Positions 5,601 to 53,769 of a stretch of 64,000 bases of DNA are shown here, piece after piece. Below the pieces are notes generated by a model. The model did not search any database. It worked only from the letters and a program-made list of their open reading frames with translations, and was not told where the DNA came from. The first letter of the stretch is position 1. Every line of letters starts with the position of its first letter. Made by a program: the position numbers and the translations under genes. This DNA is from Botryococcus braunii (Eukaryota > Chlorophyta > Trebouxiophyceae). The stretch spans positions 365,064-429,063 of the forward strand of contig KV908382.1 of NCBI GenBank assembly GCA_002005505.1. The letters are read 5' to 3'.

Positions 5601-5605
5601 TATTG

Positions 5606-10283: not shown

Positions 10284-10297
10284 GGTTATGGGCCCAC
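10284..10297 (+). promoter_or_regulatory. B1 primer-binding site for half-tRNA initiator Met
   Basis: GGTTATGGGCCCAC is the exact complement of the anticodon stem-loop segment GTGGGCCCATAACC of plant initiator tRNA-Met, rather than of a tRNA 3' end. Drosophila copia is known to use the same internal region through a cleaved tRNA. It lies immediately after the LTR. Confidence 0.85.
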
Positions 10298-21668: not shown

Positions 21669-21686
21669 GCCCGTGGGCCCATAACC
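21669..21686 (-). promoter_or_regulatory. C primer-binding site (half-tRNA iMet type)
   Basis: On the minus strand GGTTATGGGCCCACGGGC directly follows the LTR. The first 14 nt complement the anticodon arm of plant initiator tRNA-Met, as in B and F. Confidence 0.85.
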
Positions 21687-23714: not shown

Positions 23715-24417
23715 TGTTGAGTTGTGAACATACATTATAGAATGCCTTGTGCTTTAGGTGATCTTCAAATGTACATTATTAGGATACGGGTCCACTATCC
23801 ACATAAGGTACCTCAAGACACGTTCGGATGAGGTCTATTTCGAACATAAGGTACAATCTGATTTAGATTACGCGTTAGCGAGAAAGGACTATTAAAGCTG
23901 CGATCACCGCATAGTCGAGCAACTGGTTTGGAAAGATACTGGGCACATAAGGATGCCAGTCTTGTTCATGCAGTTGCATGTGTCTAAAAGAGCAGACAGT
24001 CGTCAAGGACTGTAGCTGGAGAGGCACGAACTTACGACCTGTCTGCTTGCTTACAGGTGCGGTGACGCAGGATGTGTATTGGTAATGTGTTCATGTTTGA
24101 TTGCTTGTTTGTAAGTGAACCATCTTAGTGGACAATCAAGTCTCCCAAACAGCTAAGGGACGGAGTCTTGATTGAGTATAGGAAGGTACTTGCTTTCAGC
24201 CGTCAGGAGCTTATCCGTGTGTAGATGCTCATTGACAGATCAACATGTAACGGAACTGGTTTGGAAAGATACTGGGCACATAAGGATGCCAGTCTTGTTC
24301 ATGCAGTTGCATGTGTCTAAAAGAGCAGACAGTCGTCAAGGACTGTAGCTGGAGAGGCACGAACTTACGACCTGTCTGCTTGCTTACAGGATACGCCACT
24401 GCCCATAACCTTTTACA
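23715..24417 (+). repeat. B1 3' LTR (703 bp)
   Basis: Same as 9581-10283 apart from about one base (near 23881). Followed by the gtaag duplication and the A1 pol. Confidence 0.95.
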
Positions 24418-27071: not shown

Positions 27072-27416
27072 GTCCACAAGCGCATTGGCAAACAAGCTTA
27101 TGAGCTAGTTCTGCCTGCACGCTGGAGAATACATGATGTCTTTCATGTATCCAAGTTGGAACCCTACCGTAGGGATGGATCAGTTCAACCACCGCCTCCA
27201 GCGGAACTTCTCCTTGGAGAAGAGGAATACGAGGTGGACTCCATCGTAGCCCACCGTCGTGTCAATTCTCGAAATCCCGCCAAGTACGAGTACCTCGTCC
27301 AGTGGACAGGTCACTCTCCGGAACACAATACTTGGGAACCACAAGGGAATTTGACCAATGCTCCTGAAGTGCTCAAGAGGTACTGGGACACAGTCGGTCG
27401 CAACGCACCGACATAG
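27072..27416 (+). CDS. A1 integrase C-terminus and chromodomain (downstream of in-frame TAA)
   Basis: In frame with pol after one stop. It contains HDVFHVSKLEPY and then a chromodomain (YEVDSIVAHRRVNSRNPAKY, LVQWTGH, WEP), which in chromoviruses directs integration toward modified histones. It may be produced only by readthrough, from an internal start (MEPYRRDG-like ATG at 27156 region), or not at all. The identical layout in A2 (31902-32246) argues that the arrangement has not stopped the family from moving. Confidence 0.75.
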   Translation, partial: VHKRIGKQAYELVLPARWRIHDVFHVSKLEPYRRDGSVQPPPPAELLLGEEEYEVDSIVAHRRVNSRNPAKYEYLVQWTGHSPEHNTWEPQGNLTNAPEVLKRYWDTVGRNAPT

Positions 27417-27808
27417 GAGGTTCACCAGCGGCCTTGAGCCCCCGCGCCTGCGGGAGGGTCGTGGTTATTTAGCCGCATACTCGAGTGCACCGAGTATCCT
27501 TCCGACTTGCAGGTCAAGTGCTAGCCTTCCTACGCCCACTCCCTCGGGTCCCAGCATAAGCTGTGTCTTACTGCTGTAGTGACTTAGCTCTTCGAATCAG
27601 TGGCGTTTGGCCTGTGGCCGGCGTTACCCCGTTCACTGCGGGCTTATTACTTAGTACACCCAAGGCAAGTTCGAACCCAAGTCCTCGGGCCTGGTGTCTT
27701 CGGGTCGTCGCTCATCAGCTCACCATCTTGTGGATGTGTTACAGTGAGCCTTCCACACTCACCCTTTGTTAGCCTCCCAGGAGCTCGGCTAGCTAAGAGG
27801 GGGAGAAA
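27417..27808 (+). other. A1 3' untranslated region and polypurine tract
   Basis: Non-coding. Ends in AAGAGGGGGAGAAA just before the LTR, the likely polypurine tract. Matched by 32247-32638 in A2. Confidence 0.65.
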
Positions 27809-28094
<286 letters not shown>

Positions 28095-29186
28095 TGTTGT
28101 GATAATCTAATTGCAGATGAGACCCTAATTGTCATTATCCAATAAATTGTCATGTGATTTTGGGGACAAGGATCACTGAACAAAGTATCTAGGCCATGCC
28201 GACCTCATCTGCCACGTGGTTTGTACTTACTGAGCAATGCGAGATACGTATCTGCTGTTTATTTGTAATCTTCAAGAGTGTCTATGTACTCTTTAAGAGT
28301 GTCTATGTACTCTTTAAGAGTGTCTGCGGGTGCTCAGACAGTTTCTAAGGCATTCCATGCGTGAATACTTGTATAGAAGCTGTTTGGACGCTGATCTTGG
28401 TGTTCTCTCATGAACTCCAGTATGACCTTATCATTTGTCTAGTCTTATGATGAAATGCTGAGGCCTGGAATTGACTAAGCACTTAGATCTTGGCAATTCA
28501 TAAGCCTCAATGTGTTGTGCCACTTCTGGAAGTCAACTAGCACCTCCAGGCGATAGGAATATGAGTGGGCAAACCCAAGGGGTAACCCGAAAGGTTGACC
28601 GTATGCATTCACGGTCCTTTCCCCTTGATTAGCCATTTAGTAGCCAGCACCGACGATCGTGACTAGAAACATGAGTGTTCTGGTCCGAATCAGGGCCCGG
28701 ATGTTCGGACTTACAAATTCGAACACGAAGCCCGGTGTATTGTACACCATGTACAAGGTAGACGTACTTGGGCTGACTCGGGTACGGCTACGTAGCTTGT
28801 CATGATATTTAAGAGGGCCAGTCTCTTGAAGTCAACAGTTCGTTGGCTTTCCATATGACCACGGCTCACGTCTTAAGCTTGTTGTTATGTGCCTTCAATA
28901 AGGCTTGTTTGAAGTCCTGGTGTCGGCGCGCATGCAGGTAATCACCTTCATTATAGCTTGCTTAGCTATAGGCTATAATTACAAGACACACACATTGTAA
29001 CAAAGTTCGTTGGCTTTCTATATGACCACGGCTCACGTCTTGTTGTTATGTGCCTTCAATAAGGCTTGTTTGAAGTCCTGGTGTCGGTGCGCATGCAGGC
29101 ATTATCCTTACTGACGATGGTGTTCCGTCAGCAAGGTTTGAAGTAATTGTTGAAGTAATTGTTTATTTCATGTTGTTTTATCTACA
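28095..29186 (+). repeat. E 5' LTR (1092 bp) with duplicated leader
   Basis: Starts TGTTGTGATAATC and ends TTTTATCTACA. The TATA-like TATTTAAG at 28806-28813 lies 31 bp before unit1 (28837-28937). The spacer 28938-29003 starts GTAATC after GCATGCAG and contains TGTAA at 28996-29000. Unit2 is 29004-29098, then U5. It also has a short triplicated TCTATGTACTCTTTAAGAG repeat near 28270-28322, reduced to fewer copies in the 3' LTR. Confidence 0.92.
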
Positions 29187-29197
29187 TGGTATCGGCC
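29187..29197 (+). promoter_or_regulatory. E primer-binding site
   Basis: TGGTATCGGCC immediately follows the LTR. This is tRNA 3'-end type priming, unlike copia B, C and F in the same window. Confidence 0.65.
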
Positions 29198-29219
29198 GTA
29201 CCACTGAGAAGTCGATGGC

Positions 29220-29299
29220 AGAAGGTCCACTTCTGGCCATGTCTTTCTCAGTGGTACGGCTGCCATCTTATGGGGGAGTAAGCTGCAAAAGGTCACAGC
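29220..29299 (+). pseudogene. E RNase H, first part (split by A2)
   Basis: An open frame reads RRSTSGHVFLSGTAA, then WGSKLQKVTA, the start of the copia RNase H C-terminal half. It begins within about 35 nt of the primer site, so a single large deletion joined the leader to RNase H. The frame continues at 32814. Confidence 0.75.
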
Positions 29300-29469
29300 T
29301 GTAACGTACTTCCGGATACGTCCACCGGTCGGATACGGGTCTCACGTGGTCTTCGACCACGAGGGTGCATACGACTCGGTATGCACCTGTGTGAGGTCAT
29401 TCTCACACGAGCCTTTGTCTTAGATCTTGCATCTAGCCTTTGTCTTCGTGAATTTCCTAGATCATTACA
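29300..29469 (+). repeat. A2 5' LTR
   Basis: 170 bp. Differs from A1 by CCGGTCGG for CCCGTCGG. Primer site TGGTATCGG follows at 29477. Confidence 0.95.
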
Positions 29470-29485
29470 TTTGTTTTGGTATCGG

Positions 29486-30528
29486 CCACTGGACGACCAT
29501 TTTGATAGAGCACGGCCCCGAGCCCATGAAGGGAGGCATCAGTGTGCACTTCAAATGGTTGAGAGAAATCAGGGAAAGCTAGGCAGGGAGCAGTGGTCAA
29601 GGCCTGCTTGATTGCTTGGAAAGCAGCAGCGCAAGCAGGAGACCAGACCCAAGCCACACCTTTACGAGAAAGGCGGTGGAGAGGGGAAGCCAGCATCGCA
29701 AAGTTACGAATGAACTTGCGGAAGTAGGTGGCTAAGCCCAGGAAGGACCGTAGGTGACTGAGATTCCTAGGAGTAGGAAAATCAGCTACGGCAGCTGTCT
29801 TACGGGGATCCACTTTGATTCCATCCGCAGACACCACATGACCCAAGTACGTGACTTCGGGCTGGGCGAAGGAGCATTTCTTGAGATTGGCATAGAGCTG
29901 ATGCTCTCGCAAAAGGTCCAGAACCTTTTGCAGGTGTTCACGATGCTCCTCAGGGGTTTTACTATAGATGAGGATATCATCCAAGTAAACCAAGACAAAC
30001 TTGTGGAGGTATGGGCGGAAGATTGTATTCATAGCAGTTTGGAAAGTGGCTGGTGCATTGGTGAGACCGAAGGGTAAGACTTTCCATTGATACAAGCCCA
30101 TAGGAGTCCTGAAAGCAGTTTTCGGAACATCCTCCTCAGTGATCCGGATCTGGTGGTACCCAGAGGTGAGATCCAGACTGGTGAAGACGGTGGAGCCTTG
30201 GAGTTGGTCAAGAGTATCATCTATGCGTGGCATAGGGTACTTGTTCTTGACAGTGAGTTTGTTAAGTGCGCGATAGTCGATGACCATGCGCAAGCTCCCG
30301 TCTTTCTTTTGGACAAAGAGGATAGGTGCTCCATATGGTGACGTGGAGGGCTCTATGGATCCCTTTTCCAAAAGCAGTTTGGTCTGTCTCTCGGCTTCAA
30401 GGAATTCAGCGCAAGAGAGACGGTAGAGTGGTCGAGAAGGAGGTTTGCCATGTGGGTCAGTCAGAGGGATTGTGTGAGAGATTCCAGGACGGTCTGGGGG
30501 TAACCCAGGTACCTCGTCCGGAAAGACA
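29486..30528 (-). pseudogene. A2 inverted RT / RNase H segment
   Basis: Reads on the minus strand from [15 protein letters not shown] through YRALNKLT, the catalytic YLDDILIYS and [13 protein letters not shown] to NGRPVA, then runs into the LTR leader. It corresponds to A1 positions of about 25553 back to 24508. The right junction shares CATC and the left shares GG, consistent with microhomology template switching. The segment cannot be expressed as part of the A2 sense polyprotein. Confidence 0.9.
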
Positions 30529-31901
30529 TCACCTACTTGGACTCGCTTCCTACCCTTAGCCGCTGTCAAACACGATGGGCTGAGTTCCTTTCCAGGTTCC
30601 ACTTCCGTTGGGATCACGTTGCTGGCAAGTCCAATGTGGTAGCTGATGCCCTCAGTCGTCACCCTGCCCTCGGCAGTGATTACACTCCACCGTGTGGCTT
30701 TGTCAATGCCATTGTGGCATCTGGGGTCTTAGCACCCCCTGACTCTCCCTGTCTACCGAGTCCATCCCTATCTGCCGTCCTCCGTTCCGGTGTGACTTCA
30801 GGGGGGGGAGAGCCCACGAGCCTGTCATGGAAAGACAAGTTCGTGCAAGGTTATTCTGTGGACCCATGGTTCCAGGATGCTGACAACTTGAAGGGTCTCG
30901 TCTCACACGAGGGTCTCTTCCTACACGACGGCAAAGTTGCCGTACCCGATGCATTTGGGTTGCGAACCCTTCTCCTTAAGGAAATGCATGACAGCCCTTA
31001 CGCTGGACACCAAGGTGTTCGGAAGACCCTGAAGCTCATAACCCGCCATTACTGGTGGCCTTCTATGACTCAGGAAGTGGAGAGGTATGTCACCACATGC
31101 CATCGGTGCCAAAAGAACAAAGCCAGGAACCTCAAACCAGCTGGTCTCCTGCAACCTCTGGGCTTACCCTTGGCTCCTTGGCATACAGTCACGATGGACT
31201 TCATCACGCAACTACCGTCCACAGAGCGCGGCCACGATGCCATCTTCGTCATCGTGGACAAACTCTCCAAGATGGTCCATCTGGTGCCAACCACGTCGCG
31301 AGCGACAGCGGAGCAAACGGCACGCCTGTACGTTGACAACGTATGGAAGTTGCATGGGGTCCCCCAAGTGATAGTGTCTGACAGAGATCCACTCTTCACC
31401 AGCCACTTCACCAAGGCTTTGTGCGAGATACTCGGTACCAAACAGGCCATGTCCACTGCCTACCACCCTCAAACGGATGGTCAGACAGAAAGGACCAACC
31501 GGGTACTGGAAGACATGCTACGCATGTACGTGTCGTCCAGCCAAACTGACTGGGACACCAAGTTGTCCTGCGCCGAGTTTGCTATCAACAACGCAGACCA
31601 TGAAAGCACAGGAACTACTCCATTCATGCTCAACTACGGGCATCATCCATACCTCCCAGCCACGCTCCTACCCAACCTACGGGTTCCGAGCGCAGCCGGC
31701 TTCGTTCAGCGCATGCAGCGTTTGATCAATGAAGCTCGGATGGTACACCGAGTAGCCACCAACCGACAGGCACAGGCAGCCAACACAAAACGTAGGGATC
31801 TCCAGTTCTCACCAGGGGATTGGGTCCTTCTGTCCTCCAAGGACCTACGTTTTAAGCAAGGCACTCCAAAACTCCTCCCTCGCTGGGTAGGTCCATTCTA
31901 A
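30529..31901 (+). CDS. A2 RNase H end and integrase
   Basis: Forward frame resuming at [12 protein letters not shown]. It includes the RNase H tail ([17 protein letters not shown]) and the full integrase (zinc block ending [32 protein letters not shown]). It ends at the same premature TAA as A1 (31899-31901). By eye only a handful of differences from A1 occur over about 1.4 kb (for example CHRC versus CHLC, where A2 has the more usual charged residue). An integrase without RT might be supplied in trans to others, but no start codon is obvious beyond MDSLPTLS. Confidence 0.88.
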
Positions 31902-32246
31902 GTCCACAAGCGCATTGGCAAACAAGCTTATGAGCTAGTTCTGCCTGCACGCTGGAGAATACATGATGTCTTTCATGTATCCAAGTTGGAACCCTACCGT
32001 AGGGATGGATCAGTTCAACCACCGCCTCCAGCGGAACTTCTCCTTGGAGAAGAGGAATACGAGGTGGACTCCATCGTAGCCCACCGTCGTGTCAATTCTC
32101 GAAATCCCGCCAAGTACGAGTACCTCGTCCAGTGGACAGGTCACTCTCCGGAACACAATACTTGGGAACCACAAGGGAATTTGACCAATGCTCCTGAAGT
32201 GCTCAAGAGGTACTGGGACACAGTCGGTCGCAACGCACCGACATAG
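31902..32246 (+). CDS. A2 integrase C-terminus and chromodomain after in-frame TAA
   Basis: Same as 27072-27416: HDVFHVSKLEPY, then a chromodomain with YEVDSIVAHRR, LVQWTGH and NTWEPQGN. Confidence 0.75.
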   Translation, partial: VHKRIGKQAYELVLPARWRIHDVFHVSKLEPYRRDGSVQPPPPAELLLGEEEYEVDSIVAHRRVNSRNPAKYEYLVQWTGHSPEHNTWEPQGNLTNAPEVLKRYWDTVGRNAPT

Positions 32247-32638
32247 GAGGTTCACCAGCGGCCTTGAGCCCCCGCGCCTGCGGGAGGGTCGTGGTTATTT
32301 AGCCGCATACTCGAGTGCACCGAGTATCCTTCCGACTTGCAGGTCAAGTGCTAGCCTTCCTACGCCCACTCCCTCGGGTCCCAGCATAAGCTGTGTCTTA
32401 CTGCTGTAGTGACTTAGCTCTTCGAATCAGTGGCGTTTGGCCTGTGGCCGGCGTTACCCCGTTCACTGCGGGCTTATTACTTAGTACACCCAAGGCAAGT
32501 TCGAACCCAAGTCCTCGGGCCTGGTGTCTTCGGGTCGTCGCTCATCAGCTCACCATCTTGTGGATGTGTTACAGTGAGCCTTCCACACTCACCCTTTGTT
32601 AGCCTCCCAGGAGCTCGGCTAGCTAAGAGGGGGAGAAA

Positions 32639-32808
32639 TGTAACGTACTTCCGGATACGTCCACCCGTCGGATACGGGTCTCACGTGGTCTTCGACCACG
32701 AGGGTGCATACAACTCGGTATGCACCTGTGTGAGGTCATTCTCACACGAGCCTTTGTCTTAGATCTTGCATCTAGCCTTTGTCTTCGTGAATTTCCTAGA
32801 TCATTACA
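32639..32808 (+). repeat. A2 3' LTR
   Basis: 170 bp, one change from A1 (CATACAACTCGG). Followed by the acagc duplication. Confidence 0.95.
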
Positions 32809-32813
32809 ACAGC

Positions 32814-33207
32814 CCTCTCTACAGTGGAGGCAGAGTTTGTCTCCATGTGCAGCGGAGTACAGGAAGCCCTGTGGATCTCCAAGCTCGTGTCAGATTTTGG
32901 GGGAGTTCCAGCGCCAATCATGATCTACACCGACAATACGGGAGCGCTGGCCAACATCAAGGGCATTCCGATCTCGCCGCGCATGAAGCACATCGGGGTC
33001 AGATACCACAGAGTCAGGCAGGAAGTGGAGCAAGGATCAATCAGCCCCTTCTATGTGGAGTCTGCATCAAATCTGGCGGACATGTTCACTAAAGCGTTGC
33101 CTAAAGTGCAATTCCAGAAATTGAGGGCTGGGATTGGGATGGAGGTATTCATGGATGTCAAGTTGCTACTTGATTGCCTTGCGTATCATAGAGCTTCTCC
33201 ACCATAA
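32814..33207 (+). pseudogene. E RNase H, second part
   Basis: Continues the copia RNase H after A2: LSTVEAEFVSMCSG, IYTDNTGALANI, VRYHRVRQEV, NLADMFTKALP, ending at a stop at 33205-33207. The remaining 150 bp to the LTR are non-coding and end with CATGGGGGAG, the polypurine tract. Confidence 0.85.
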
Positions 33208-33363
33208 ACCCACAGGGTGGGAGTGGCTTCGCACCCAAAAAGGGGGAAGTCTCTGGTGGCTGGATAGCAGGGTGGTGGAACGACACGGCGTAGAAGACCG
33301 TGCCACCGTGTAGCTCCTTGACACAAGTCTACATGAATATTGTCCCCTTCAGTCATGGGGGAG

Positions 33364-34802
33364 TGTTGTGATAATCTAATTGCAGATGAGACCCTAATTG
33401 TCATTATCCAATAAATTGTCATGTGACTTTGGGGACAAGGATCACTGAACAAAGTATCTAGGCCATGCCGACCTCATCTGCCACGTGGTTTGTACTTACT
33501 GAGCAATGCGAGATATGTATCTGCTGTTTATTTGTAATCTTCAAGAGTGTCTATGTACTCTTTAAGAGTGTCTGCGGGTGCTCAGACAGTTTCTAAGGCA
33601 TTCCATGCGTGAATACTTGTATAGAAGCTGTTTGGACGCTGATCTTGGTGTTCTCTCATGAACTCCAGTATGACCTTATCATTTGTCTAGTCTTATGATG
33701 ATGATGTAAAAGGTTATGGGCAGTGGCGTATCTTGTAAGCAAGCAGACAGGTCGTAAGTTCGTGCCTCTCCAGCTACAGTCCTCGACGACTGTCTGCTCT
33801 TTAGACGCATGCAACTGCATGAACAAGACTGGCATCCTTATGTGCCCAGTATCTTTCCAAACCAGTTGCTCGACTATGCGGTGATTGCAGCTTTAATAGC
33901 CCTTTCACACTAACGCGTAATCTAGATCAGATTGTACCTTATGTTCGAAATCGTCCACAACCTAACGTGTCTTAAGGTATACCTTATGTTCTCAATGGAC
34001 CCATATCCTAATAGTGCACACCTGAAGATCACTTAAAGCACAAGGCATTCAATAATAATGTTCAGAACTCGACAGAAATGCTGAGGCCTGGAATTGACTA
34101 TGCACTTAGATCTTGGCAATTCATAAGCCTCAATGTGTTGTGCCACTTCTGGAAGTCAACTAGCACCTCCAGGAGATAGGAATATGAGTGGGCAAACCCA
34201 AGGGGTAACCGAAAGGTTGACCGTATGCATTCACGGTCCTTTCCCCTTGATTAGCCATTTAGTAGCCAGCACCGACGATCGTGACTAGAAACATGAGTGT
34301 CCTGGTCCGAATCAGGACCCAGATGTTCGGACTTACAAATTCGAACACGAAGTCCGGTGTATTGTACACCATGTACAAGGTAGACGTACTTGGGCTGACT
34401 CGGGTACGGCTACGTAGCTTGTCATGGTAATTAAGAGGGCCAGTCTCTTGAAGTCAACAGTTCGTTGGCTTTCTATATGACCACGGCTCACGTCTTGTTG
34501 TTATGTGCCTTCAATAAGGCTTGTTTGAAGTCCTGGTGTCGGTGCGCATGCAGGTAATCACCTTCATTATAGCTTGCTTAGCTATAGGCTACAATTACAA
34601 GACACACACATTGTAACAAAGTTCGTTGGCTTTCTATATGACCACGGCTCACGTCTTGTTGTTATCTGCCTTCAATAAGGCTTGTTTGAAGTCCTGGTGT
34701 CGGTGCGCATGCAGGCATTATCCTTACTGACGATGGTGTTCCGTCAGCAAGGTTTGAAGTAATTGTTGAAGTAATTGTTTATTTCATGTTGTTTTATCTA
34801 CA
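33364..34802 (+). repeat. E 3' LTR, interrupted by a B-type solo LTR
   Basis: Matches 28095-29186 with the insertion 33705-34074. The duplicated leader is at about 34460-34735, again with the GTAATC spacer and TTGTAAC junction. It ends TTTTATCTACA, followed by gggag. Confidence 0.9.
33705..34074 (-). repeat. B3: solo copia-B-type LTR with a single leader unit
   Basis: On the minus strand it starts TGTCGAGTTCTGAACA and ends CATAACCTTTTACA, recognisably the B LTR. It has one unit joined directly to U5 (GATACGCC), 370 bp against 703 in B1 and 1027 in B2. Diverged from B1 by many substitutions. The flanks (gatgatga / gaaat) do not give a clean duplication. Confidence 0.85.
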
Positions 34803-36726
34803 GGGAGGGAGGGAGGGAGCGAGAGAGCTCCCTCCCTCCCTCTCTCCCTCACGTTTCACCCGACACAGCTGCTTGTGGCTCGTGACTTCCGCGTACCAGC
34901 ATGTCGGATGCGTGTTTGCGGGTAGGATCTGCTTCACTTATGTTTTAAATACATCTGTCTAGCCCAGAGGGCAGCTGCCTGCAGGATGACCTGCAAACGG
35001 TGGGGAAGCTCGATCCTTAATAATAATGTGTCTGAAGACTCGTACTCCAATTTGGAGATTTCGAGCCTGCAAACCTACTACGTGAAATTCTACTGCCGGA
35101 AGACACCTAGAGCTCGAGCCCATGGACACACCGAACTTCGTCGACCCGCATCAAGGAAGGCCCCGGAATGCACCGTCATGGGGTCTGGAGGATTTCGCCT
35201 AGTAATTTCCTGCAAAATCAAAGTTATCGGAAAGAATTGTTGCTTACAATCGAATTCGGAATCGATCAAGCCGCCGTGCAGTACAATGCTACAACTACAG
35301 AATGTCCGAAACTCCGACACTTTCCGTCGATGGCCGCCAGGTAGCACAGTTGGGCGCTCTGTAATCCAGCCAATGTTCCTCATGAAGCTTCTTTGAACAG
35401 TCGGAGCAGATTGGGACGGGTTGAAGCTCTTTCCTAAAGCTCATTCAACCAAGGGGGCAGCGTCACACCTTGATTGTCCCAGGTCCGGCCTCGATCGAGT
35501 GTACTGCTTGCAACGTTTTTCGCATGTCGAAATAAATTAATCCACTGCTCAAAAGTATCATTGGGCTTATCTGACATGTATACTCTGCAGAGAGATATAT
35601 TTGGTGGTTTCGTGGGCAGGGCCGCTGGTCCTACGCATCCCCGCCTTGTTGACACTGTCGGTAGTGAATGGAACACCTAAAGAATGTAAAGGGGCACAAT
35701 TTCATAGGACTTCCGGCGTGATTCTTGAAATTCTGCTGTTGATGGACTGATCTCCACTCTTTGCTTGTAAAAGGAAACGCAGGGCCAGTCTACGTAGCCC
35801 CTGCCACCATATTCATAGAATCCCCCACACTGCTCCTGCAGCATTTCAGCTACGTCAAATAAAAACGGCCTTGAATACGGTGGTAAATGCACGTGTTTGT
35901 TTGTGTGTATGTGTGACTGTGTGTTTGTGTGAGTGTTTGTATCAATTTTCGGTCCTTCATATACCAACGCTTTGCAGAACTAGTTTGTTGTGGCGCCATC
36001 CGACTACCACATGTTTTCCACTTTTTTTGGTAAATGCATTTTGGGGTGTCGCTCTACGTTGTAATAGCAAATTAATGTATGTCGCAGCGCAGGGCTATGG
36101 CTTCCTATGGTGGTAACGCAAACACCTCGCTAGTCAACCCTGCGGGGTGCTCAGCTCCTTACCCTCTCGAAAGAGTTTTATCTGCTTTTAATTTGATCCC
36201 AATGCCCTCCTCTTTGTTGCCGGAACCTTCTGGCGTGCTGGACGAAGCCCTGGGGTGTTGGTTGTCGATGGTGCGATTTTCCCGTCCACACTCCGGCCTG
36301 ATCATAGTTTCTAACAGTATCCTTGACGGCATCGCAATTAACATTTTAAAATACTAAGTTAACGATATACATATGAAACGACTAAGAACATATAGTTTTT
36401 GGGTTTGTGAAGAAAGAGTTTGATCCGGGAAGGAGCATCATGCATGTTATGGCAATCAGCGGAAGAGTATTTGACTGAGGCAAAGAGATCCGTTCATGAA
36501 ACGAAGATAGGGACTGATGACAATGTGTGAAGTTCTCGTCTTAAATGCGACGCAGAGCGGCCACATATAGAATGTACGCGTTCATTTAAGTATATGAAAA
36601 CCAGAGAGAACTGTACGGGATCTCCCCATGCACGCATATGAAGTACAAGGTAATGGTTGTCTTTACAATGCATATATGTTGAATGCTTGTATATGTAGCA
36701 TGTATACTTATATACTATACTAGCAG
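34803..36726. other. Unassigned, mostly unique sequence
   Basis: Starts with a GGGA/CCCT inverted microsatellite (34803-34850). Short open frames here show no recognisable domain. A GT-rich patch lies at 35890-35942. It may contain upstream exons or the promoter of the bZIP gene, but none could be defined. Confidence 0.4.
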
Positions 36727-40363: not shown

Positions 40364-42344
40364 GACGGCATATGCTATGTGACTGGATGTACTTCGTATA
40401 ATATTTCTGATCATGGCTTGGAGGAAATTGAGGTCACAAAAAGGGCGTGCACTTGGGAAGTGGAGGGAATATGGCATCTTGAATGCAGCTGGTCCTCGGC
40501 AGGCGGTGGCCTTGTCCGGCCTTGTTTATGTGCGGCATATCAGATTTAATCAGGTCATGAGCTCCTGCTGGGCTGCTGACGCCGATCTATGGTGCTCATC
40601 CCATGCCTTGCCCTGTTAAAAGGTTTGAGGCGCAGGCACAGCACACTCGCGGGATATGTCGCGTGCTGAGGCTATCTGGATGCATAGACGTGAGGACTGT
40701 GCTTAAAAAGGCCGCATTGCTGGAAAATTTAGCTAGAGTAATAGAGTGTGGTGTGGTGTCATGTATGTACATTAGCTGCGATGTGCATTCCGCACCTCAT
40801 GTTGCAATTGGTGTATATGCGCACATATGTGTCGGTGCAGAGGCCTCCTTTGAGCTGCAGTCAATTGAAAGTGAGTGCATGCGCAACTGAGTTGCGTCGT
40901 ATACGTACTTGGTTCAGCCGACGAGGTCAGCTGTTCTTTCGCTTCATTTAACACGCTGTACAGGTGTGGGTTTCTAACCGGTACCGTTAACCATATATTG
41001 ACATGTATGTTTTTAAAAGCATGTACGACCACACGCCTGTGTGTTCATTCCATCAGATTTCGTGGTTTGTTGCAACACGTAGTTTCGTCTTATTCCATCA
41101 CCATTGTGTGTTTCGTTGCAACACATAATTCCTTGGACATTTCATCACAGTGCAGCTCTCTGATGGTCAGGGGCACACTAAGGATCGTTGAACGTTGGGC
41201 GTTGGTATTGACACTACCGTATACGTAGTGTGCCCTGTCTTTTAACGGGTCGTATTTTGGGGGAGGGAAGTTTGCACAAGGCCCCGCAACCCCGGTGTCA
41301 AAGCTTAATGGGGGCGTACCTCCAGTGTCATTGTGTTCGCCGTTGACGGACTGGATGTAGGTGTGTGGGGAGGTTTTGTATGGAGCATACACAGCTTATA
41401 ATCAGCGGGAAGCCGGCATGAGCTTCCGGTGGATCTGCTATATTGCCAGATGCCTCCGGCGGATCTGCTATATTGCGAGATGTCGAGGATTTAGGTGAGC
41501 CATGTCCTCATTGCATGGCTTTGTATATATTCACTTGTTAGGAACTCGCAAACCTCATTCGTCTCTGCGCCTTCCCAGCTATGTACATGTCAACGTATGT
41601 TAGCACGTGTACCACGTGCAAGAAGGTCGTTTTGTTTAGAATAAAAAATGAAGTCTATCCTAACCGCACACCATGAATCCTGCATGCAGGTACGGATTTT
41701 GTTTGTCGCCACTTGTTTTGGGACCTGGCGCTGACGCCATTTAGGATACGGCAATTCAGGGGCATCGCTTTTGAATCAGTTGCATCGTCAAGTGAGGACG
41801 TGTCACATCTACAGCCAAAAGAGTGCACGCATGATTATGGGGCATGGCGCTTATTCCTGTGCTGCATGCTTACAGCTGACTTACTGAATGTCGGCTTGAA
41901 TTAGTTGCAACTTATTGCGTCGTCAAGTGAGGACGTGTCACAATTACAGACAAAAGGTTGCACGCATGAATAGGGGCCTGGCACATTCGTTGCGGTATAG
42001 TAGTGGTATCTGGAGTGACAGAGCAAACCCGCCAATTGCAGTGCCCTTGTCACTGGTCGTGTGCACTGTGAGGATATGAATTTACGTATCTTTTAGGCTA
42101 CTTTGAAGTCAGAGGTCGAACTCCCTTAAGTGTTGCCGAGTCCTCTACACTTGACCGGGGTTGGGAAAGGATGGAGAAGCACTCAGGCCCTGACGTACTT
42201 AAAAGAAAGTATGTACAGGCTGGAAGACCGTGCACGTGGCATAAGTAAACGTCTTTGCCGCGGGTCTCATAGCCACAGCTTCGTTGCTGAAATATTGCAG
42301 GCAGCATGTGAAGGCTAGAAGCAGCATTACTGAAGCAGTACAGT
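40364..42344. other. Unassigned sequence with short duplications
   Basis: No gene recognised. A tandem pair of about 33 bp (GGATCTGCTATATTG) lies at 41430-41485. A duplicated segment of about 60 bp (CGTCAAGTGAGGACGTGTCAC) occurs at about 41787 and 41922. Confidence 0.4.
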
Positions 42345-42475: not shown

Positions 42476-42829
42476 TGTGGATCCTGCAAGATCCAGTTTG
42501 GATTTAATATTATAAATCACAGATAATAAGACACACACATGTGTCATCCAGATAAGTGAACACTTTCAATATCAACACCATCAAACGGTGGAAGCAGTTT
42601 AACAGGTCAGACTGATCTTCTCTTGATCTGACCAATGCATACACGATGCCAAACACAGATGAGAGTGAATGTAGATCAGGCTGTGAGTCAGAGTTTTTGA
42701 CAACAAGACGTTTCAAAAAACACTACGGAATGACTTACACGGGCAGTATACGACGCTGACCTATCTAACGATTACCTGCAAGATTTAATATTATAAATCA
42801 CAGATAATAAGACACACACATGTGTCATC

Positions 42830-42911
42830 CTGTGCATATTAATCCATTAGTGTCTTGCTGGTAACTATCACACGATCACTTGCATGCGAACGTGTAGCAT
42901 AAACTGCTTAC
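42830..42911 (-). other. Intron 2 in F 3' LTR unit1
   Basis: GT...AG intron of 82 nt, flanked by CACTTATCTG and GATGACACAT. The flanks are joined in unit2 at 42548-42549. Confidence 0.85.
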
Positions 42912-42970
42912 CAGATAAGTGAACACTTTCAATATCAACACCATCAAACGGTGGAAGCAGTTTAACAGGT

Positions 42971-43060
42971 CTGCACATTAACAATAACATTATTAGTATA
43001 AGATTAACAAACAGCACTTATGGCTGTCAAAATAACGTCAGCGACGAACATACGCCTCAC
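42971..43060 (-). other. Intron 1 in F 3' LTR unit1
   Basis: GT...AG intron of 90 nt, flanked by GATCAGTCTG and ACCTGTTAAA. The same flanks are directly joined in unit2 at 42605-42606. Confidence 0.85.
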
Positions 43061-43596
43061 CAGACTGATCTTCTCTTGATCTGAACAATGCATACACGAT
43101 GCCAAACACAGATGAGAGTGAATGTAGATCAGGCTGCGAGTCAGAGTTTTTGACAACAAGACGTTTTAAAAACACTACGGAATGGCTGCTTGAGACTTCG
43201 TTCAGTCGCACCTAGTATTATCAGATCAGCGCGTTGAATTGCGCTGATCTGGCCCTTTTCACGAATTCCTATCAGAATTTAGGTTCAGAGCCTTGGAAAT
43301 TGACCCTTATCCTAATATGAGATTATCACGTTCTTAGTTACTAGGATAATCCCATGTTTGATAGCCACAAGCAACAGGAAGGACATTCTCTACCATGTTC
43401 TTAGATACCTTTATACATTAATACTTGTGGCCAAAAGACCACTGGCTGTCTGTCAAAGAGTTTCCCTTGAGTTGAGCACATGGGTCAACTATACAGCTAA
43501 TTTATTCTTGCTAGAATTGTCATCTTTGGATTGGCTTGACAGTACACAAATTCCCACAATCTTCCCCTTGTACTTTCAGGACATGCCAACATTAGT

Positions 43597-44409: not shown

Positions 44410-45807
44410 CTATAGAACATTAGTCGTTTTAAGAGTATGTGAGGATTCGTCTATCTTAATTTCACACCTCAAAAATGACTTTATTTCACCAAGATCATGA
44501 ATTGAGAATATGCTAGTCAGCTGTTGCTTAACACACTGAATAGATTCCACATCCTCACTCACAATCAACAAATCATCCACATACACTAACAAGTATACGT
44601 GTGACTTGAATGACTCTTTGTTAATGAAGAGAGCTGGATCACACTGACAGGATGTAAAACCAAACTTTCCAAGCTCTTCCACCAGACACTTATGCCATGC
44701 ACGTGGTGCTTGCTTTAGACCATATAAGGATCTGAGTAGCTTGCACACTATATTAGAATCACCATTAAAGAAACAGGGAGGTTGGGCTACATACACTTCC
44801 TCATCTAGTGTTCCATTTAGGAATGCTGTCTTCACATCGACTTGGTGTATTTTCCACCCATCTGACGTGGCTAAATTTAACAGCACCCCCCTAGACGTGT
44901 GTGTACTGACTGGAGCAAAGGTTTCAAAGTAGTCAACACCTGGCCTTTGCTTGCAACCTTGGGCCACCAGTCTCGCCTTGAATCTGACAATATCACCAAA
45001 ACTGTCAGTTTTTAAAGCATAGACCCATTTCAGACGAATACTTTTGGCATCAGCAGGTCTCTCACAATATTCAAACGTTTCATGAGAGTCAATCGAGTCC
45101 ATCTCTTCATTCATGGCCTCCAACCAATATGCCCACTGTGGTGATTTTTTAGCTTCCCACCAGTCCTCTGGATCCTTGATATTCCTTGATGATAATTTTA
45201 CTTGCTCTTGTGCCCCATTTTGATTTGGAGGGATTATTTCTGATGCATCTGTAACTGGCGTTTCCCCAATGTGGTATGTACCAGGAACATACCTGTCTGG
45301 TTCTGCCAACGTTTGCCTCAGTTCATATCTACCTCCACCACCTTTGGCACCATTTTGTAATTCATCACTTGAGTCACTGTTTTCAGCAGAGGGGTGATTA
45401 TCTGACTCCTCACGTGAACTATCTGATACGTGTGACTCTGGATTCTGTGTGTCCCCAGTGCCCACTGCTCCTTCCCCTGGAGCTTCTGACCCAGATAGCC
45501 CACTTGGACCACTCTCTTCCGCTGTTCCCAGGCCCCTCAAGATGTCATTCATTCTTTGCATGACTTCTATGTTAGCTGGAAGGATTGGTGCAGTACCCCT
45601 TCCTGCTTCCCTGCTTAGTTCCAATGCCCCTGTGAGGTCAACCGGTACAAAGTCCCAATCATCCCCATCATCAGTGTGATGGCAAAGGAAGAGAGAGAGG
45701 GACGAGACACCAGTCAGGTTAGAGCATTCAGCCGAATCTGTTACAAGCCGGTCAGCACCGGGACTTCCTTCGACGCCAAGACGCGTGCCACTTTCCAGAG
45801 CCTTCAT
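44410..45807 (-). pseudogene. F reverse transcriptase region
   Basis: After an acidic Ser-rich spacer it reads WAYWLEAMNEEMDSIDSHE, LKWVYALKTDSFGD, FKARLVAQGCKQRPGVD, KTAFLNGTLDEEVYV, LYGLKQAPRAWH and the catalytic YVDDLL near 44580. It is in a different frame from the integrase; the junction is an overlapping stop and ATG at 45804-45807. The frame ends with a TAG at 44410-44412 before RNase H. Confidence 0.85.
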
Positions 45808-46439
45808 TTCAGGACCCGGCAGATTCCTGCCTGAAATCCTGGCATTGGACCTGGCAGCTTCCTGCCGTTACAATCAGTGCATGGAACTTGATCGAAGTTA
45901 ATCTCATGGGAGAACTCAGCAGGCAAGGAGTTACTAGGAGAGAGAGCCTGAATTCCTAGTTTATCTTCAAAGAATTTGACGTTCTTTGATACCTTTACCT
46001 TGTTGCCCACCCTGACTCGATAGGCCTTTGATGCAGGCTCATATCCTACAAACATCCCAGCCTCAGATCTGGCCGAAAAGGCTGATAGATCCTTATCTGG
46101 TATCTTAATAAGCGCCAGGCATCCCCACACTCTCAAGTAGTGCACTGATGGTTTCCTCCCAAACAGCAGTTCAAAGGGAGTGGCAGTCTTCCCCTTTACT
46201 GCTCTGAGATTTAACAACCTGACAACTGTTGGGAGGGCATCCGCCCACATGCTTTGTGGAGCTTTTGCCTGCAGCAGAAGTATCCTAACTGTCTCTTTTA
46301 ATGATCTGTTAAAACGTTCTGCTCTCCCATTATGCTGAGGGGTATAAGGGGCAGACGTTTCGTGTCTGATCCCTTTAGACAGAAAAAAGTCAAGCAAGTC
46401 AGAATTTACAAACTCACTTCCCCTGTCAGACCTAACCAC
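45804..46439 (-). pseudogene. F integrase, C-terminal part
   Basis: In frame with gag-protease after one TAA near 46465. Catalytic block VVRSDRGSEFVN, then TSAPYTPQHNGRAERFNRSLKE, WADALPTVV and GCLALIKIP. Ends at a stop overlapping the next ATG. Family function: integration of cDNA. Confidence 0.85.
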
Positions 46440-46463
46440 CTTGACATTGTGATTAGTCTGATT

Positions 46464-48209
46464 TTATAAGTACAGGATGATGGACTTAACGGCACCACCC
46501 ACCTGGGACTTGGAGGTCAATGCCACAGATTCACCGGCTCTAGAGTAATCATCTAGTACTGTGAGCATGTAGCGCTCACCCTCAGCTCCTGGCACTGGTA
46601 GCTCACCAATTACATCCAAGTGCAACAGCTGAAGACGTTCAGTTGCTGATACTGGAGATCGTTGGTAGCTCTCTCTAATCTGCTTGCCCATCACACATAC
46701 GTCACACAGTGAATGACCATGCAAACAAGGAGAAAGAGATGTAGATATTCCTTTCACCATATCCTCAGTCTGCAATCGTTCCAGGTTTTTACTCCCTGGA
46801 TGTCCCAAACGTTGATGCCACAAATCATATTCAGAACATTTGTGCGCATAACCCACACTGTGTGATGGCTGAATTTTGCAGCACAGGCAGTGAACAAAAT
46901 ACAATCCCCTTTCCTTTCTGACCTCTGGAGTGAATCTTGAGGTGTTGCTAGACATGCATATGATCTCTCCATGTGCATTAATTGAAAAAGTTATGCCATC
47001 CGTTACTGCACTTGAGACTGACAATAGATTCTCAATGGCAGTAGGCACATACTCTACATTTTTTAGTTTACACATATTACCCATTTCATCTACTAAACAT
47101 ACAGAGCCACATGCCTTGCGTTGTGCAATATGTTCACCAGTTGCCAAGTTCAGGCCCTTTGGTTGTGTATACCAGTGAATGTTTTGCATGAGTCTGACAT
47201 CATTGCATATGTGCGTTGAAGCTCCTGAGTCTACCACCCATATGGAAAATGGATTACCTGAGTCAGAGGAGTCACCCAATGCAATACCTCCAACCGGATT
47301 TGCTTGGTTTTTGCGTGCTGCAATAAGGGCAGCCCTTTTCTCCTTTTCTGCTAGGAGTTTTGGACACACGTTTCTGGAATGTCCATCTTCCAAGCAGTGC
47401 CAGCAGCCCCTGAAGTTGTCAGGCAGGTCTTCCGGCATTCCCTGTGGTCTGGATCCTGGGGCATTCCTTGGACGAGGGGGACCTCTGACTAAGTTGGCAA
47501 TATTGGCAGAGTGTGAGGGGGCCTTGAATTCATCAATTCCAAGCAACCTTGAACATGCCTGAATATTGAGCGTGACCTTATCCTCATCCTGACCAAGACA
47601 GGAGGTATAGAGATTTGACTTCGCATGCTCAAACTGCTTTGGCAAACCTTCCACAATTCCCATTTTCAACCTTCCATCAGAACATGGGTGGTTGTTAGCT
47701 TGCAGACCTCTGGCCAGCCTGAACTTCCTAGCCACATATGCATGGTGCTCTTGACCATCATCGATACGCCCATAGTCCAAGACCTTGGACCATTTTCTCA
47801 GTAACTCTTCATTGTGTCCACCAGTAAACTTGCGCAGCAGCCAATCATAGGCGTGCTTTGCACTTGGCATGTCCAATGCCCTGTCCACCCAAACGTCAGG
47901 AATTTTTTCAGTGAGGAGACTCATAGCAAGAGAGTCTCCAGCTGCATTAGGATGCTCCTCCTCAAGACATAGCTTAATGCGTTTACTATTGGCAACATTC
48001 AGAACATCTTTCTGCCACCTGAAACCATTCTCACAATCCAGGTCCAATGCCTGAACTAATTTTAGATTATTATAGACAGGGTTTGTCTGATCTATACCAT
48101 TTCCTGACTGGGCAGAGTGACTGGTGGTGCCAGCTGAAGGATTTGTGGGTGGATTTGATTGTGGATTGGATAAATCACCTGGGGTAGGGTTCGTAGCCAA
48201 TGTTGCCAT
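46464..48209 (-). CDS. F Gag, protease and integrase N-terminus
   Basis: Starts at the ATG 48209 (MATLATNPTPGDLSN). The copia capsid lies at about residues 50-230 (FRWQKDVLNVANSKRI, LLRKWSKVLDYGRI). The zinc knuckle is CWHCLEDGHSRNVC (about 270-283), and the protease IWVVDSGASTHICND (about 325-340). The GAG-pre-integrase block has LWHQRLGHPG and LCDVCVMGK, then the first integrase strand HLDVIGELP. It ends at an in-frame TAA (46464-46466), beyond which integrase continues. The ATG overlaps the end of the leader ORF by 35 nt in another frame. Confidence 0.87.
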   Translation of the reverse strand: MATLATNPTPGDLSNPQSNPPTNPSAGTTSHSAQSGNGIDQTNPVYNNLKLVQALDLDCENGFRWQKDVLNVANSKRIKLCLEEEHPNAAGDSLAMSLLTEKIPDVWVDRALDMPSAKHAYDWLLRKFTGGHNEELLRKWSKVLDYGRIDDGQEHHAYVARKFRLARGLQANNHPCSDGRLKMGIVEGLPKQFEHAKSNLYTSCLGQDEDKVTLNIQACSRLLGIDEFKAPSHSANIANLVRGPPRPRNAPGSRPQGMPEDLPDNFRGCWHCLEDGHSRNVCPKLLAEKEKRAALIAARKNQANPVGGIALGDSSDSGNPFSIWVVDSGASTHICNDVRLMQNIHWYTQPKGLNLATGEHIAQRKACGSVCLVDEMGNMCKLKNVEYVPTAIENLLSVSSAVTDGITFSINAHGEIICMSSNTSRFTPEVRKERGLYFVHCLCCKIQPSHSVGYAHKCSEYDLWHQRLGHPGSKNLERLQTEDMVKGISTSLSPCLHGHSLCDVCVMGKQIRESYQRSPVSATERLQLLHLDVIGELPVPGAEGERYMLTVLDDYSRAGESVALTSKSQVGGAVKSIILYL

Positions 48210-48795
48210 GTCTGGGAATGTAGCACCTGCACTTTTGTTCTGTGCTGTCCTCTAGATCACTGGCAATGGACTCAATTGTCTCAGCAAGTTTTTCTGTCAA
48301 GGTTTTGTAAGGTGATTCGTCTCGTGCGAGCCAAGGACTCAACGCTACACCCGCTCCTTTACTTAATGCAAGGAGTGTTGCATACTCAATGAGAAGACAG
48401 TGATGTGAAAAATCCAAAGGGATTTCGTATCTAGCTAACGTAGTATATTGCTCGCGAAGACTCTGTGAATAACTTTCTCTATCGATTAGTCTAGCCTCCC
48501 AAGTGTAAAGAGAGAATTTGCGACGGGAACCTTTTGGAACTGGATACTCAGAGTTTTCAACTGATTGAATTAGCTTAGAATTACGATTGTTAAACTTAGC
48601 TTGATAGTACCCTTCTTGCTCAATACCTTCTCGGCAAAAGTCTTCAAACACAATAATTCCACGTTCAATAGCACGATTTACGTTCTCAACAGGAACTTTT
48701 CCTGACACCCAGTTATTGCATAGATCGCAGTGGAAGTGCCCTTCGCGGAGCAGATTGAGCTCGTCGTCCGTCAGTAGAGGTGGTCGTCGCTCCAT
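48175..48795 (-). CDS. F leader ORF (206 aa) between primer site and gag, unknown function
   Basis: Begins with the ATG directly after the primer site (GGGCCCACGCCCATGG). Sequence features: MERRPPLLTDDELNLLREGH, then CDLCNNW (a CXXC pair), an Arg/Lys-rich middle, and an Asp/Glu-rich tail with TEKLAETIESIASDLEDS that may be helical. Length and composition suggest a real protein, uninterrupted although downstream pol has decayed. No family recognised. Ty1/copia elements normally lack an ORF here; C has a different, shorter one at the same position. It could be captured host sequence or an element-specific factor. Confidence 0.65.
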   Translation of the reverse strand: MERRPPLLTDDELNLLREGHFHCDLCNNWVSGKVPVENVNRAIERGIIVFEDFCREGIEQEGYYQAKFNNRNSKLIQSVENSEYPVPKGSRRKFSLYTWEARLIDRESYSQSLREQYTTLARYEIPLDFSHHCLLIEYATLLALSKGAGVALSPWLARDESPYKTLTEKLAETIESIASDLEDSTEQKCRCYIPRHGNIGYEPYPR

Positions 48796-48798
48796 GGG

Positions 48799-48813
48799 CG
48801 TGGGCCCATAACC
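48799..48813 (-). promoter_or_regulatory. F primer-binding site (half-tRNA iMet type)
   Basis: On the minus strand GGTTATGGGCCCAC lies 2 nt after the LTR, complementary to the anticodon arm of plant initiator tRNA-Met. Confidence 0.85.
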
Positions 48814-48815
48814 AT

Positions 48816-49913
48816 TGTGGATCCTGCAAGATCCAGTTTGGATTTAATATTATAAATCACAGATGATAAGACACACACATGTGTCATCCAGATAAGTGAA
48901 CACTTTCAATATCAACACCATCAAACGGTGGAAGCAGTTTAACAGGTCAGACTGATCTTCTCTTGATCTGAACAATGCATACACGACGCCAAACACAGAT
49001 GAGAGTGAATGTAGATCAGGCTGTGATTCAGAGCGTTTGACAACAAGACGTTTCAAAAAACACTACGGAATGACTTACACGGGCAGTATACGACACTGAC
49101 CTATCTAACGATTACCTGCAAGATCCAGTTTGGATTTAATATTATAAATCACAGATAATAAGACACACACATGTGTCATCCTGTGCATATTAATCCATTA
49201 GTGTCTTGCTGGTAACTATCACACGATCACTTCCCTGCATGCGAACGTGCAGCATAAACTGCTTACCAGATAAGTGAACACTTTCAATATCAACACCATC
49301 AAACGGTGGAAGCAGTTTAACAGGTCTGCACATTAACAATAACATTATTAGTATAAGATTAACAAACAGCACTTATGGCTGTCAAAATAACGTCAGCGAC
49401 GAACATACGCCTCACCAGACTGATCTTCTCTTGATCTGAACAATGCATACACGATGCCAAACACAGATGAGAGTGAATGTAGATCAGGCTGTGAGTCAGA
49501 GTTTTTTACAACAAGACGTTTCAAAAACAATACGGAATGACTGCTTGAGACTTCGTTCAGTCGCACCTACTATTATCAGATCAGCGCGTTGAATTGCGCT
49601 GTTCTGCCCCTTTTCACGAATTCCTATCAGAATTTAGGTTCAGAGCCTTGGAAATTGACCCTTATCCTAATATGAGTTTATCACGTTATTAGCTACTAGG
49701 ATAATCCCATGTTTGATAGCCACAAGCAACAGGAAGGACATTCTCTACCATGTTCTTAGATACCTTTATACATTAATACTTGTGGCCAAAAGACCACTGG
49801 CTGTCTGCCAAAGAGTTTCCCTTGAGTTGAGCACATGGGTCAACTATACAGCTAATTTATTCTTGCTAGAATTGTCATCTTTGGATTGGCCTGACAGTAC
49901 ACAAATTCCCACA
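48816..49913 (-). repeat. F 5' LTR (1098 bp): unspliced and spliced leader copies
   Basis: Same layout as the 3' LTR: unit1 with introns at 49415-49326 (90 nt) and 49266-49181 (86 nt), spacer 49115-49074 (GTAATC...TGTAAG), intronless unit2 (49073-48824), U5 48823-48816. A leader intron from 49115 to 48824 would remove spacer plus unit2. Confidence 0.93.
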
Positions 49914-52742: not shown

Positions 52743-53769
52743 TGTTGAGTTGTGAACATACATTATAGAATGCCTTGTGCTTTAGGTGATCTTCAAATGT
52801 ACATTATTAGGATACGGGTCCACTATCCACATAAGGTACCTCAAGACACGTTCGGATGAGGTCTATTTCGAACATAAGGTACAATTTAGATTACGCGTTA
52901 GTGTGAAAGGACTATTAAAGCTGCGATCACCGCATAGTCGAGCAACTGGTTTGTAAAGATACTGGGCACATAAGGATGCCAGTCTTGTTCATGCAGTTGC
53001 ATGTGTCTAAAGAGCAGACAGTCGTCAAGGACTGTAGCTGGAGAGGCACGAACTTACGACCTGTCTGCTTGCTTACAGGTGCGGTGACGCAGGGTGTGTA
53101 TTGGTAATGTGTTAATGTTTGATTGCTTGTTTGTAAGTGAACCATCTTAGTGTACAATCAAGTCTCCCAAACAGCTAAGGGACGGAGTCTTGATTGAGTA
53201 TAGGAAGGTACTTGCGTTCAGCCGTCAGGAGCTTATCCGTGTGTAGATGCTCATTGACAGATCAACATGTAACGGAACTGGTTTGGAAAGATACTGGGCA
53301 CATAAGGATGCCAGTCTTGTTCATGCAGTTGCATGTGTCTAAAGAGCAGACAGTCGTCAAGGACTGTAGCTGGAGAGGCACGAACTTACGACCTGTCTGC
53401 TTGCTTACAGGTGCGGTGACGCAGGGTGTGTATTGGTAATGTGTTAATGTTTGATTGCTTGTTTGTAAGTGAACCATCTTAGTGTACAATCAAGTCTCCC
53501 AAACAGCTAAGGGACGGAGTCTTGATTGAGTATAGGAAGGTACTTGCGTTCAGCCGTCAGGAGCTTATCCGTGTGTAGATGCTCATTGACAGATCAACAT
53601 GTAACGGAACTGGTTTGGAAAGATACTGGGCACATAAGGATGCCAGTCTTGTTCATGCAGTTGCATGTGTCTAAAGAGCAGACAGTCGTCAAGGACTGTA
53701 GCTGGAGAGGCACGAACTTACGACCTGTCTGCTTGCTTACAGGTGATGCCGAATGCCCATAACCTAACA
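52743..53769 (+). repeat. B2: copia-B-type LTR (1027 bp) with three leader units
   Basis: Starts TGTTGAGTTGTGAACA and ends CCCATAACCTAACA. Units at about 52943-53077, 53277-53411 and 53608-53742, separated by two GTGCGG...TGTAACGG spacers. U5 is diverged from B1. Inserted in D2 RT. Confidence 0.9.

Follow-up and report, generated by a model that had tools for sequence, protein, structure and literature searches.

The LTRs of copia F, a Ty1/copia element in a 64,000-nucleotide stretch of Botryococcus braunii DNA (the window), carry an intron-bearing leader, unit1, followed by a second copy of that leader, unit2, which lacks both introns exactly at their GT and AG borders. Comparison of 55 LTRs of the family establishes this anatomy and demonstrates, as far as genomic DNA can record it, that unit2 tracks the spliced form of unit1 through essentially every cycle. 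The best explanation, which we consider very probable, is that the spliced 5′ leader would rebuild unit2 through strand transfer in each cycle.

Anatomy of the copia F LTRs

Copia F spans 49913-42476 on the minus strand, as do all of its features given below, and resembles Ty1/copia elements in its copia-type RT domain, 5-bp TSDs, TG..CA LTRs and a PBS adjoining the 5′ LTR. The TSD is ACTGC, one base of which overlaps the LTR end on the 3′ side. Between the LTRs, gag_pre-integrs and Pol_BBD match at 46464-48251, rve (under the curated cut-off), rve_3 and SH3_retrovirus fall within 45804-46463, and an open frame at 44410-45867 matches the copia RT in Pfam (RVT_2, E 9e-61); this order, with the integrase upstream and RVT_2 downstream, is the copia gene order. 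Between the PBS and gag lies an open frame (48175-48819, minus strand; about 200 codons) that has no Pfam match at E 0.001. Beyond the 3′ LTR, there is a 62-nt direct repeat (41780-41841 and 41915-41976) whose copies are 87% identical.

The 5′ LTR (48816-49913, 1098 nt) runs from TGTGGG to GATCCACA and is followed by the PBS region ATGGTTATGGGCCCACG (48798-48815), which we take to be a copia-type tRNA-Met half. Its U3 (49543-49913) holds the predicted promoter and adjoins a predicted cap site at A49542, where the homology between the units starts. Self-comparison of each LTR resolves three repeat blocks with borders at GT and AG. In the 5′ LTR, unit1 consists of exon 1 (49416-49542, 127 nt), exon 2 (49267-49325, 59 nt) and exon 3 (49116-49180, 65 nt, ending in CTTGCAG), separated by intron 1 (49415-49326, 90 nt, GTGAGG...TGTGCAG) and intron 2 (49266-49181, 86 nt, GTAAGC...TGCACAG), both of which also emerge from the parse of the family. 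A 40-nt spacer (49115-49076) leads to UGUAA (49079-49075), a chlorophyte-type poly(A) signal, at the point where unit2 starts; unit2 itself (48824-49075, 252 nt) consists of exons 1, 2 and 3 joined. Spacer and unit2 together make up a predicted third intron of 292 nt (48824-49115).

The 3′ LTR (42476-43558, 1083 nt) has exon 1 at 43061-43187, intron 1 at 43060-42971 (90 nt), intron 2 at 42911-42830 (82 nt), an exon 3 of 54 nt that has lost 11 nt relative to the 65 nt of the 5′ LTR, a spacer (42736-42775) ending in UGUA|A, and unit2 at 42484-42735, about 10-25 nt inside which the RNA is predicted to end. An initial annotation had given the same intron coordinates in both LTRs, and self-comparison confirms them. 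It had also recognized the location and spliced form of unit2 in the 3′ LTR; the start that it gave, 42733, has to be moved, as homology begins two bases before it, at 42735. A third junction that it proposed, joining 49116 to 48823, has the GT..AG borders in the DNA that such a splice would use (cttgcag|GTAATC ... cttgcAG|GATCC). The two copies of exon 3 thus read CTTGCAG|GTAATC in unit1 versus CTTGCAG|GATCC in unit2. Were both CAGs also spliced together, the spliced leader would be exactly unit2 followed by GATCCACA, and the structure would therefore reproduce itself.

A whole-LTR query against the 176-Mb assembly gave at least 42 matches that are 84-100% identical, and shorter or more divergent queries added further copies; the genome searches scored the best 40 candidates, and copy numbers are lower bounds. 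We parsed 55 LTRs from 36 contigs and 40 loci (the two LTRs of one element counting as one locus), requiring two exon-1 hits, one spacer and an exon-3 hit; neither introns nor likeness of the units was selected for. Fourteen of 69 sequences were set aside, namely three LTRs with three units (L012, L067 and L078), one with a single unit (L047) and ten without a landmark (L014, L016, L026, L031, L033, L055 and four reverse-strand partners). Another 23 loci had been omitted beforehand: 19 that duplicated an LTR already included, and four (L019, L020, L040 and L041) with an interruption of the LTR within exon 1. At L085-L088 (contigs C477 and C324), copia F LTRs lie inside other copia F LTRs in the opposite orientation, with breaks in exon 1 or intron 2.

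All 55 parsed LTRs have a spliced unit2 and an intron-bearing unit1, which is longer by 145-383 nt. Among the 54 LTRs in which both gaps are measurable (L023 is excluded from this count), the script finds GT-AG at intron 1 in 53 and at intron 2 in 52, and this exact agreement of the gaps between unit1 and unit2 is far beyond chance. The claim that the inserts are missing from unit2 exactly at GT and AG therefore holds across the 55 LTRs; four depart from it by script, through one-off changes in a single LTR. The scripted exception at intron 1, L018, has a normal GT and AG on inspection and a base change in unit2, while in L028 the AG is changed. In L083, an insertion lengthens intron 2 in one LTR only, and we reject this long intron as a real variant. 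Likewise, 32 extra nt in the unit2 of L023 reflect a local palindromic change or rearrangement and not a retained intron, and alternative splicing is rejected. The proposed reading thus survived a search of the 55 LTRs for unit2 gaps that lie off GT/AG boundaries.

The spacer starts with GTAATC, the predicted donor of intron 3, in 55/55 LTRs; CAG, the predicted acceptor, ends unit2 in all 55 and also ends unit1 in 54; and in 53, the final A of UGUAA is the first base of unit2. A genome-wide search by exact pattern, which covered intron 2 and skips mismatched or diverged copies, recovers intron 2-exon 3-spacer at least 35 times and exon 2-exon 3-LTR end at least 37 times. The crossed forms, spliced with spacer and intron-2-retained with LTR end, each have 0 exact matches in the same search.

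A putative cycle of leader splicing and strand transfer

The LTR would be laid out as a promoter, the unit1 leader (in copia F, three exons and two introns), GT, a short spacer terminated by UGUAA, and unit2. Transcription would begin at the first base of unit1. From the 5′ leader, introns 1 and 2 would be spliced out together with a third intron, which comprises the spacer with its UGUAA and the whole of unit2, and the resulting 5′ end of the RNA would read exon1-exon2-exon3-GATCCACA-PBS. The introns would be retained, and UGUAA used, at the 3′ end either of this RNA or of another packaged with it; the RNA would terminate about 10-25 nt inside unit2, and this stub of unit2 would be the repeat R. 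Minus-strand strong-stop DNA would copy the spliced leader, jump to R and proceed through the spacer, unit1 and U3, and the new LTR would again be U3-unit1(unspliced)-spacer-unit2(spliced)-GATCCACA. The leader would have to terminate in CAG, which would act as a 5′ splice site where it precedes GT in copy 1 and as a 3′ splice site where it ends copy 2.

We infer the cap site, the poly(A) site, the splicing of intron 3, the retention of the 3′ introns and the transfer step from the arrangement of the DNA. A cycle of this kind had been put forward in the initial annotation, and it gains support from the concerted evolution described below and from the UGUAA at the expected transfer point; its unspliced 3′ end is argued indirectly, in that introns persist in unit1 and the 3′ end of the RNA would therefore stay unspliced. 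The sequence offers no explanation for how the 3′ introns escape splicing, which counts against the cycle. A plausible reason is that the cap would define exon 1 at the 5′ end only, the 3′ copy following several kb of unspliced coding RNA.

Retroelement particles usually carry two RNAs, and in one version of the cycle, strong-stop DNA made on a spliced RNA would transfer to the 3′ end of a second RNA, one from which no intron has been removed. Such a two-RNA version would account for the survival of the 3′ introns, and the DNA pattern that it predicts is identical to that of the one-RNA version; it also requires two RNA species to be co-packaged, and genomic sequence cannot tell the versions apart. 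We give it the minor share of the confidence placed in the cycle as a whole.

The start of the RNA is suggested by the units themselves. Position by position across the 55 LTRs, they are unrelated through -1 and alike from +1: the first unit base is A in 55/55, the base preceding unit1 is C in 54/55, and the subfamily-diagnostic sites +6 and +12 are concordant in 55/55. This abrupt start of homology is the trace expected from copying off a cap site, for which the first unit base is the candidate; had transcription started further upstream, ordinary strand transfer would give an LTR with only one spliced unit. Several families have weak TATA-like boxes near -30 of unit1, or none, and a TATA box at this position was rejected as proof of the cap site, as only X and V2 reach a score that is met by 3.8% of random window stretches.

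At the other end, UGUAA at -4 to +1 of unit2 predicts that R would be short, and removing intron 3 would strip this signal from the 5′ leader. According to one study, UGUAA is the top poly(A) signal candidate in the chlorophytes studied except Pyramimonas, with a peak about 17 nt before the cleavage site, and was at that time without experimental proof as a signal (PMC1868727). We looked for depletion of UGUAA in internal regions and did not find it (6 sense occurrences in that of copia F versus 6.8 expected); the pentamer alone, therefore, cannot define the poly(A) site.

Concerted evolution of unit1 and unit2

An inherited unit2 should resemble other unit2s, whereas a remade unit2 should resemble its own unit1. 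The unit1 and unit2 of one LTR differ by 0.9% on average (maximum 4.0%) and are without substitution in 16/55 LTRs, whereas the unit1s of different elements differ by a mean of 9.7% (maximum 19.2%). When ordered pairs are compared, the own unit2 is closer than a foreign unit1 in 2847/2940, with 49 ties and 44 in the opposite direction. At 49 variable sites, defined by a minor state in at least five of the 55 unit1 copies, 2670 of 2695 cells are concordant within the LTR versus 1562 expected if states were randomly dealt, and the majority state is the same in both units at every position. Constraining all unit1s to one clade lowers the log-likelihood by 412, and such a tree is rejected (AU p 5e-6; 11 sets of identical rows that occurred on both sides were exempt from the constraint). 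On the 40-locus tree, the label switches 35 times between unit1 and unit2. The own unit1 is nearest or tied to unit2 in 27/40 loci by tree; that this is not so in all of them counts against the explanation we favor.

Fifteen loci have two LTRs, and 13 of these, including the window element with its one overlapping base, have matching 5-bp flanks. Among the 15, there are 37 substitutions between unit1 and unit2, all private to one LTR and none common to both; the 13 loci with matching TSDs hold 36 of the 37, with none shared. The units therefore matched at birth apart from the introns, with the exception of an indel in a T run, whose length differs between the units in both LTRs of the copia F in the window, so that identity at birth is not absolute. 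This shared difference is compatible with the proposed cycle because unit1 and unit2 would descend from two different parental LTRs. Together, concordance within LTRs and identity at birth argue that essentially every cycle makes unit2 anew from spliced unit1, and the concerted evolution of an LTR's own units supports the earlier suggestion that the U5-proximal copy would derive from spliced RNA and be rebuilt each round.

Gene conversion or unequal crossing-over at the DNA level could also homogenize unit1 and unit2, with no splicing per cycle, and LTRs with other numbers of units do fit unequal exchange within exon 1. Three units are found in copia F LTRs L012, L067 and L078 and in one relative of family X (window 52944-53742), two of the units having a downstream GT and one standing at the LTR end; the copia F LTR L047 has the spliced unit only. 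C228 and C261 each have a two-unit LTR with a triple one about 6.1 kb downstream of it, the arrangement expected of the 5′ and 3′ LTRs of a single element. Both the triple and the single forms would result from unequal recombination in exon 1. However, these would arise equally from the transfer step, unspliced strong-stop DNA transferred to unit2 giving a triple LTR and spliced strong-stop DNA transferred to unit1 giving a single one. We therefore reject L047 as proof of transfer to unit1, since recombination explains it too. Exchange across exons 2 and 3, on the other hand, should shift introns into unit2 or out of unit1, and no such LTR is present among the 55 or among the exact-pattern matches; identity at birth, moreover, links homogenization to the replication cycle. 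We consider exchange at the DNA level an improbable source of the pattern.

A single ancient capture of a spliced leader, after which both units were inherited in an ordinary LTR with a promoter at either unit, would need only one rare step and would explain the exact splice borders, but it predicts clustering by position and is hardly credible given the likeness of own units relative to those of other elements, the lack of any position with a differing majority state, the rejected unit1 clade and the 0 shared substitutions in the 15 two-LTR loci.

Recurrence of the plan and comparison with known systems

The initial annotation presented the design as that of one LTR family. It is indeed present in copia F, but it recurs in seven other repeat groups, including a gypsy LTR, and at the level of sequence this recurrence in both copia and gypsy LTRs is clear. 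The LTR pairs of families X, Y and Z, found by a plain repeat search of the window, have the plan without internal introns. Family X (copia, plus strand, TSD GTAAG as read from the sequence) has its 5′ LTR at 9581-10284 and its 3′ LTR at 23715-24418, with a 136-nt unit that appears as unit1 (9787-9922 and 23921-24056) and unit2 (10120-10255 and 24254-24389), and RVT_2 at 22348-23694; in the 5′ LTR, the predicted intron is 9923-10255 and UGUAA lies at 10112-10116. A variant of this family (W, 52944-53742, plus strand) has three units in a row, spaced 332 nt apart, the first two followed by GTGCGG and the last by a changed tail, GTGATGCCG. Family Y (copia, minus strand) has its 5′ LTR at 21684-22377 and its 3′ LTR at 15236-15929, a 142-nt unit (unit1 at 22174-22033 and 15726-15585, unit2 at 21853-21712 and 15405-15264) and RVT_2 at 15948-19283.

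Family Z belongs to Ty3/gypsy and has a 95-nt unit. Its LTR at 28095-29186 (plus strand) contains unit1 (28837-28937), GTAATC, UGUAA and unit2 (29004-29098), and a second LTR at 34459-34714 (plus strand) has unit1 at 34459-34553 and unit2 at 34620-34714. RVT_1, RNase H, Integrase_H2C2 and rve match within 24321-27071; RVT_1 and RNase H are found again in 29457-30728, and Integrase_H2C2 and rve in 30504-31901, in a locus that is rearranged. Within 24321-34805, one LTR (28095-29186) is apparently common to two gypsy copies; gypsy internal segments at 25692-27978 and 30522-32808 are 99.65% identical and the RT frame at 29457-30728 is on the opposite strand, which suggests a rearranged tandem.

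The window contains a fifth LTR pair (261 nt, 4286-4546 and 8065-8325), which has UGUAA and lacks a repeated unit; between its LTRs lies a gypsy-type integrase with a chromodomain (5549-7303), and this chromodomain gypsy is a useful negative control family. From a reading of eight repeat pairs, the plan is present in 4/5 LTR pairs of the window, where, by our reading, it is common and not universal.

We also scanned 325 kb, overlapping loci included, for close repeats with AG at the end of each copy, GT after the first copy and UGUAA at the start of the second. Further plan-type repeats lie beside copia F copies in L006, L014, L027, L047 and L058, and the plan is present in 7/13 close-repeat groups not derived from copia F; the six groups without it include coding, low-complexity and tandem repeats and one repeat cut by the locus end. 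Downstream of the repeats in L006 and L027 lies the same PBS sequence; flanking repeats outside the window are known as repeats, not as LTR pairs. The distance from the end of UGUAA to copy 2 is 0-3 nt in these other groups, whose units all end in CAG but for copy 1 of L047 (TAG). The leaders of Y-like groups are 68-93% alike between groups (7-32% different) and 99.3-100% alike within one LTR (0-0.7% different). A 75-nt repeat at the end of L034, with UGUAA upstream of copy 2, is clipped by the locus end and possibly represents another family with the plan.

We regard it as probable that this is a general strategy of LTR elements in the alga, Ty1/copia and Ty3/gypsy alike, in which the genomic RNA would be leader-spliced, the LTR would be a two-state memory holding unspliced and spliced forms, and one CAG would take the roles of 5′ and 3′ splice site by turns; splicing would be obligatory and self-templating in reverse transcription, and would solve the problem of two poly(A) sites.

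In the canonical U3-R-U5 scheme, the template for U5 is the parental U5 in an unspliced RNA. The U5 of copia F is, unlike this, a spliced copy of upstream sequence in the same LTR that would be remade each cycle; rather than being inherited from a parental U5, unit2 follows its own unit1 minus the introns. The major splice donor of HIV-1 and the donor in R of HTLV/BLV, both near the 5′ end, guard against the promoter-proximal poly(A) site, and the genomic RNA of these retroviruses is unspliced. Copia F, like them, has a poly(A) signal in both LTRs that must be ignored in the 5′ one; unlike theirs, its signal lies within a predicted intron and would be cut from the leader.

Among plant elements, Ogre (gypsy) and EVADE (copia) are described as notable intron-bearing exceptions, with introns that reportedly serve subgenomic RNAs (PMC12786077). 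Copia F resembles both in having spliceosomal introns in an LTR element, and differs in that its introns lie inside the LTR and that the spliced and unspliced forms are both kept as DNA in each LTR. In tests of spliced-intron retrotransposition with marked Ty elements (PMC12786077), introns are likewise lost via an RNA intermediate; there the loss is permanent, whereas in copia F the intron-bearing copy would be restored each round from the other end of the RNA. The design had been thought undescribed, and in the open-licence literature, searched by titles and the starts of abstracts, we found no description of an LTR with an intron-bearing leader and its spliced copy. One scan of viral contigs gave no relatives, and a second gave four matches that look phage or bacterial by eye and are without direct repeats. 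Relatives do appear among metagenome proteins (P0001-P0004), at the protein level only, with 72-85% identity over 48-69% of the query.

A host rbcS pieced together from its exons is 98% identical to a B. braunii protein (jgi Botrbrau1), with 73% for the next hit, and the host is very probably this chlorophyte. In the B race of B. braunii, to which this assembly may or may not belong, class I transposable elements consist mainly of LTR elements (PMC11286282). Two superfamilies have the plan, which suggests that it either arose convergently under the RNA processing of the host or spread by the exchange of LTR modules; other green algae could be searched for it. If the proposed cycle is true, the textbook rule that U5 is copied from the parental U5 via an unspliced genome would need revision, and the spliceosome would become part of the replication cycle. 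The LTRs of these elements would then hold a genomic record of splicing that is readable without RNA, and would provide a different answer to how a poly(A) signal is used only at the 3′ end of elements with identical ends.
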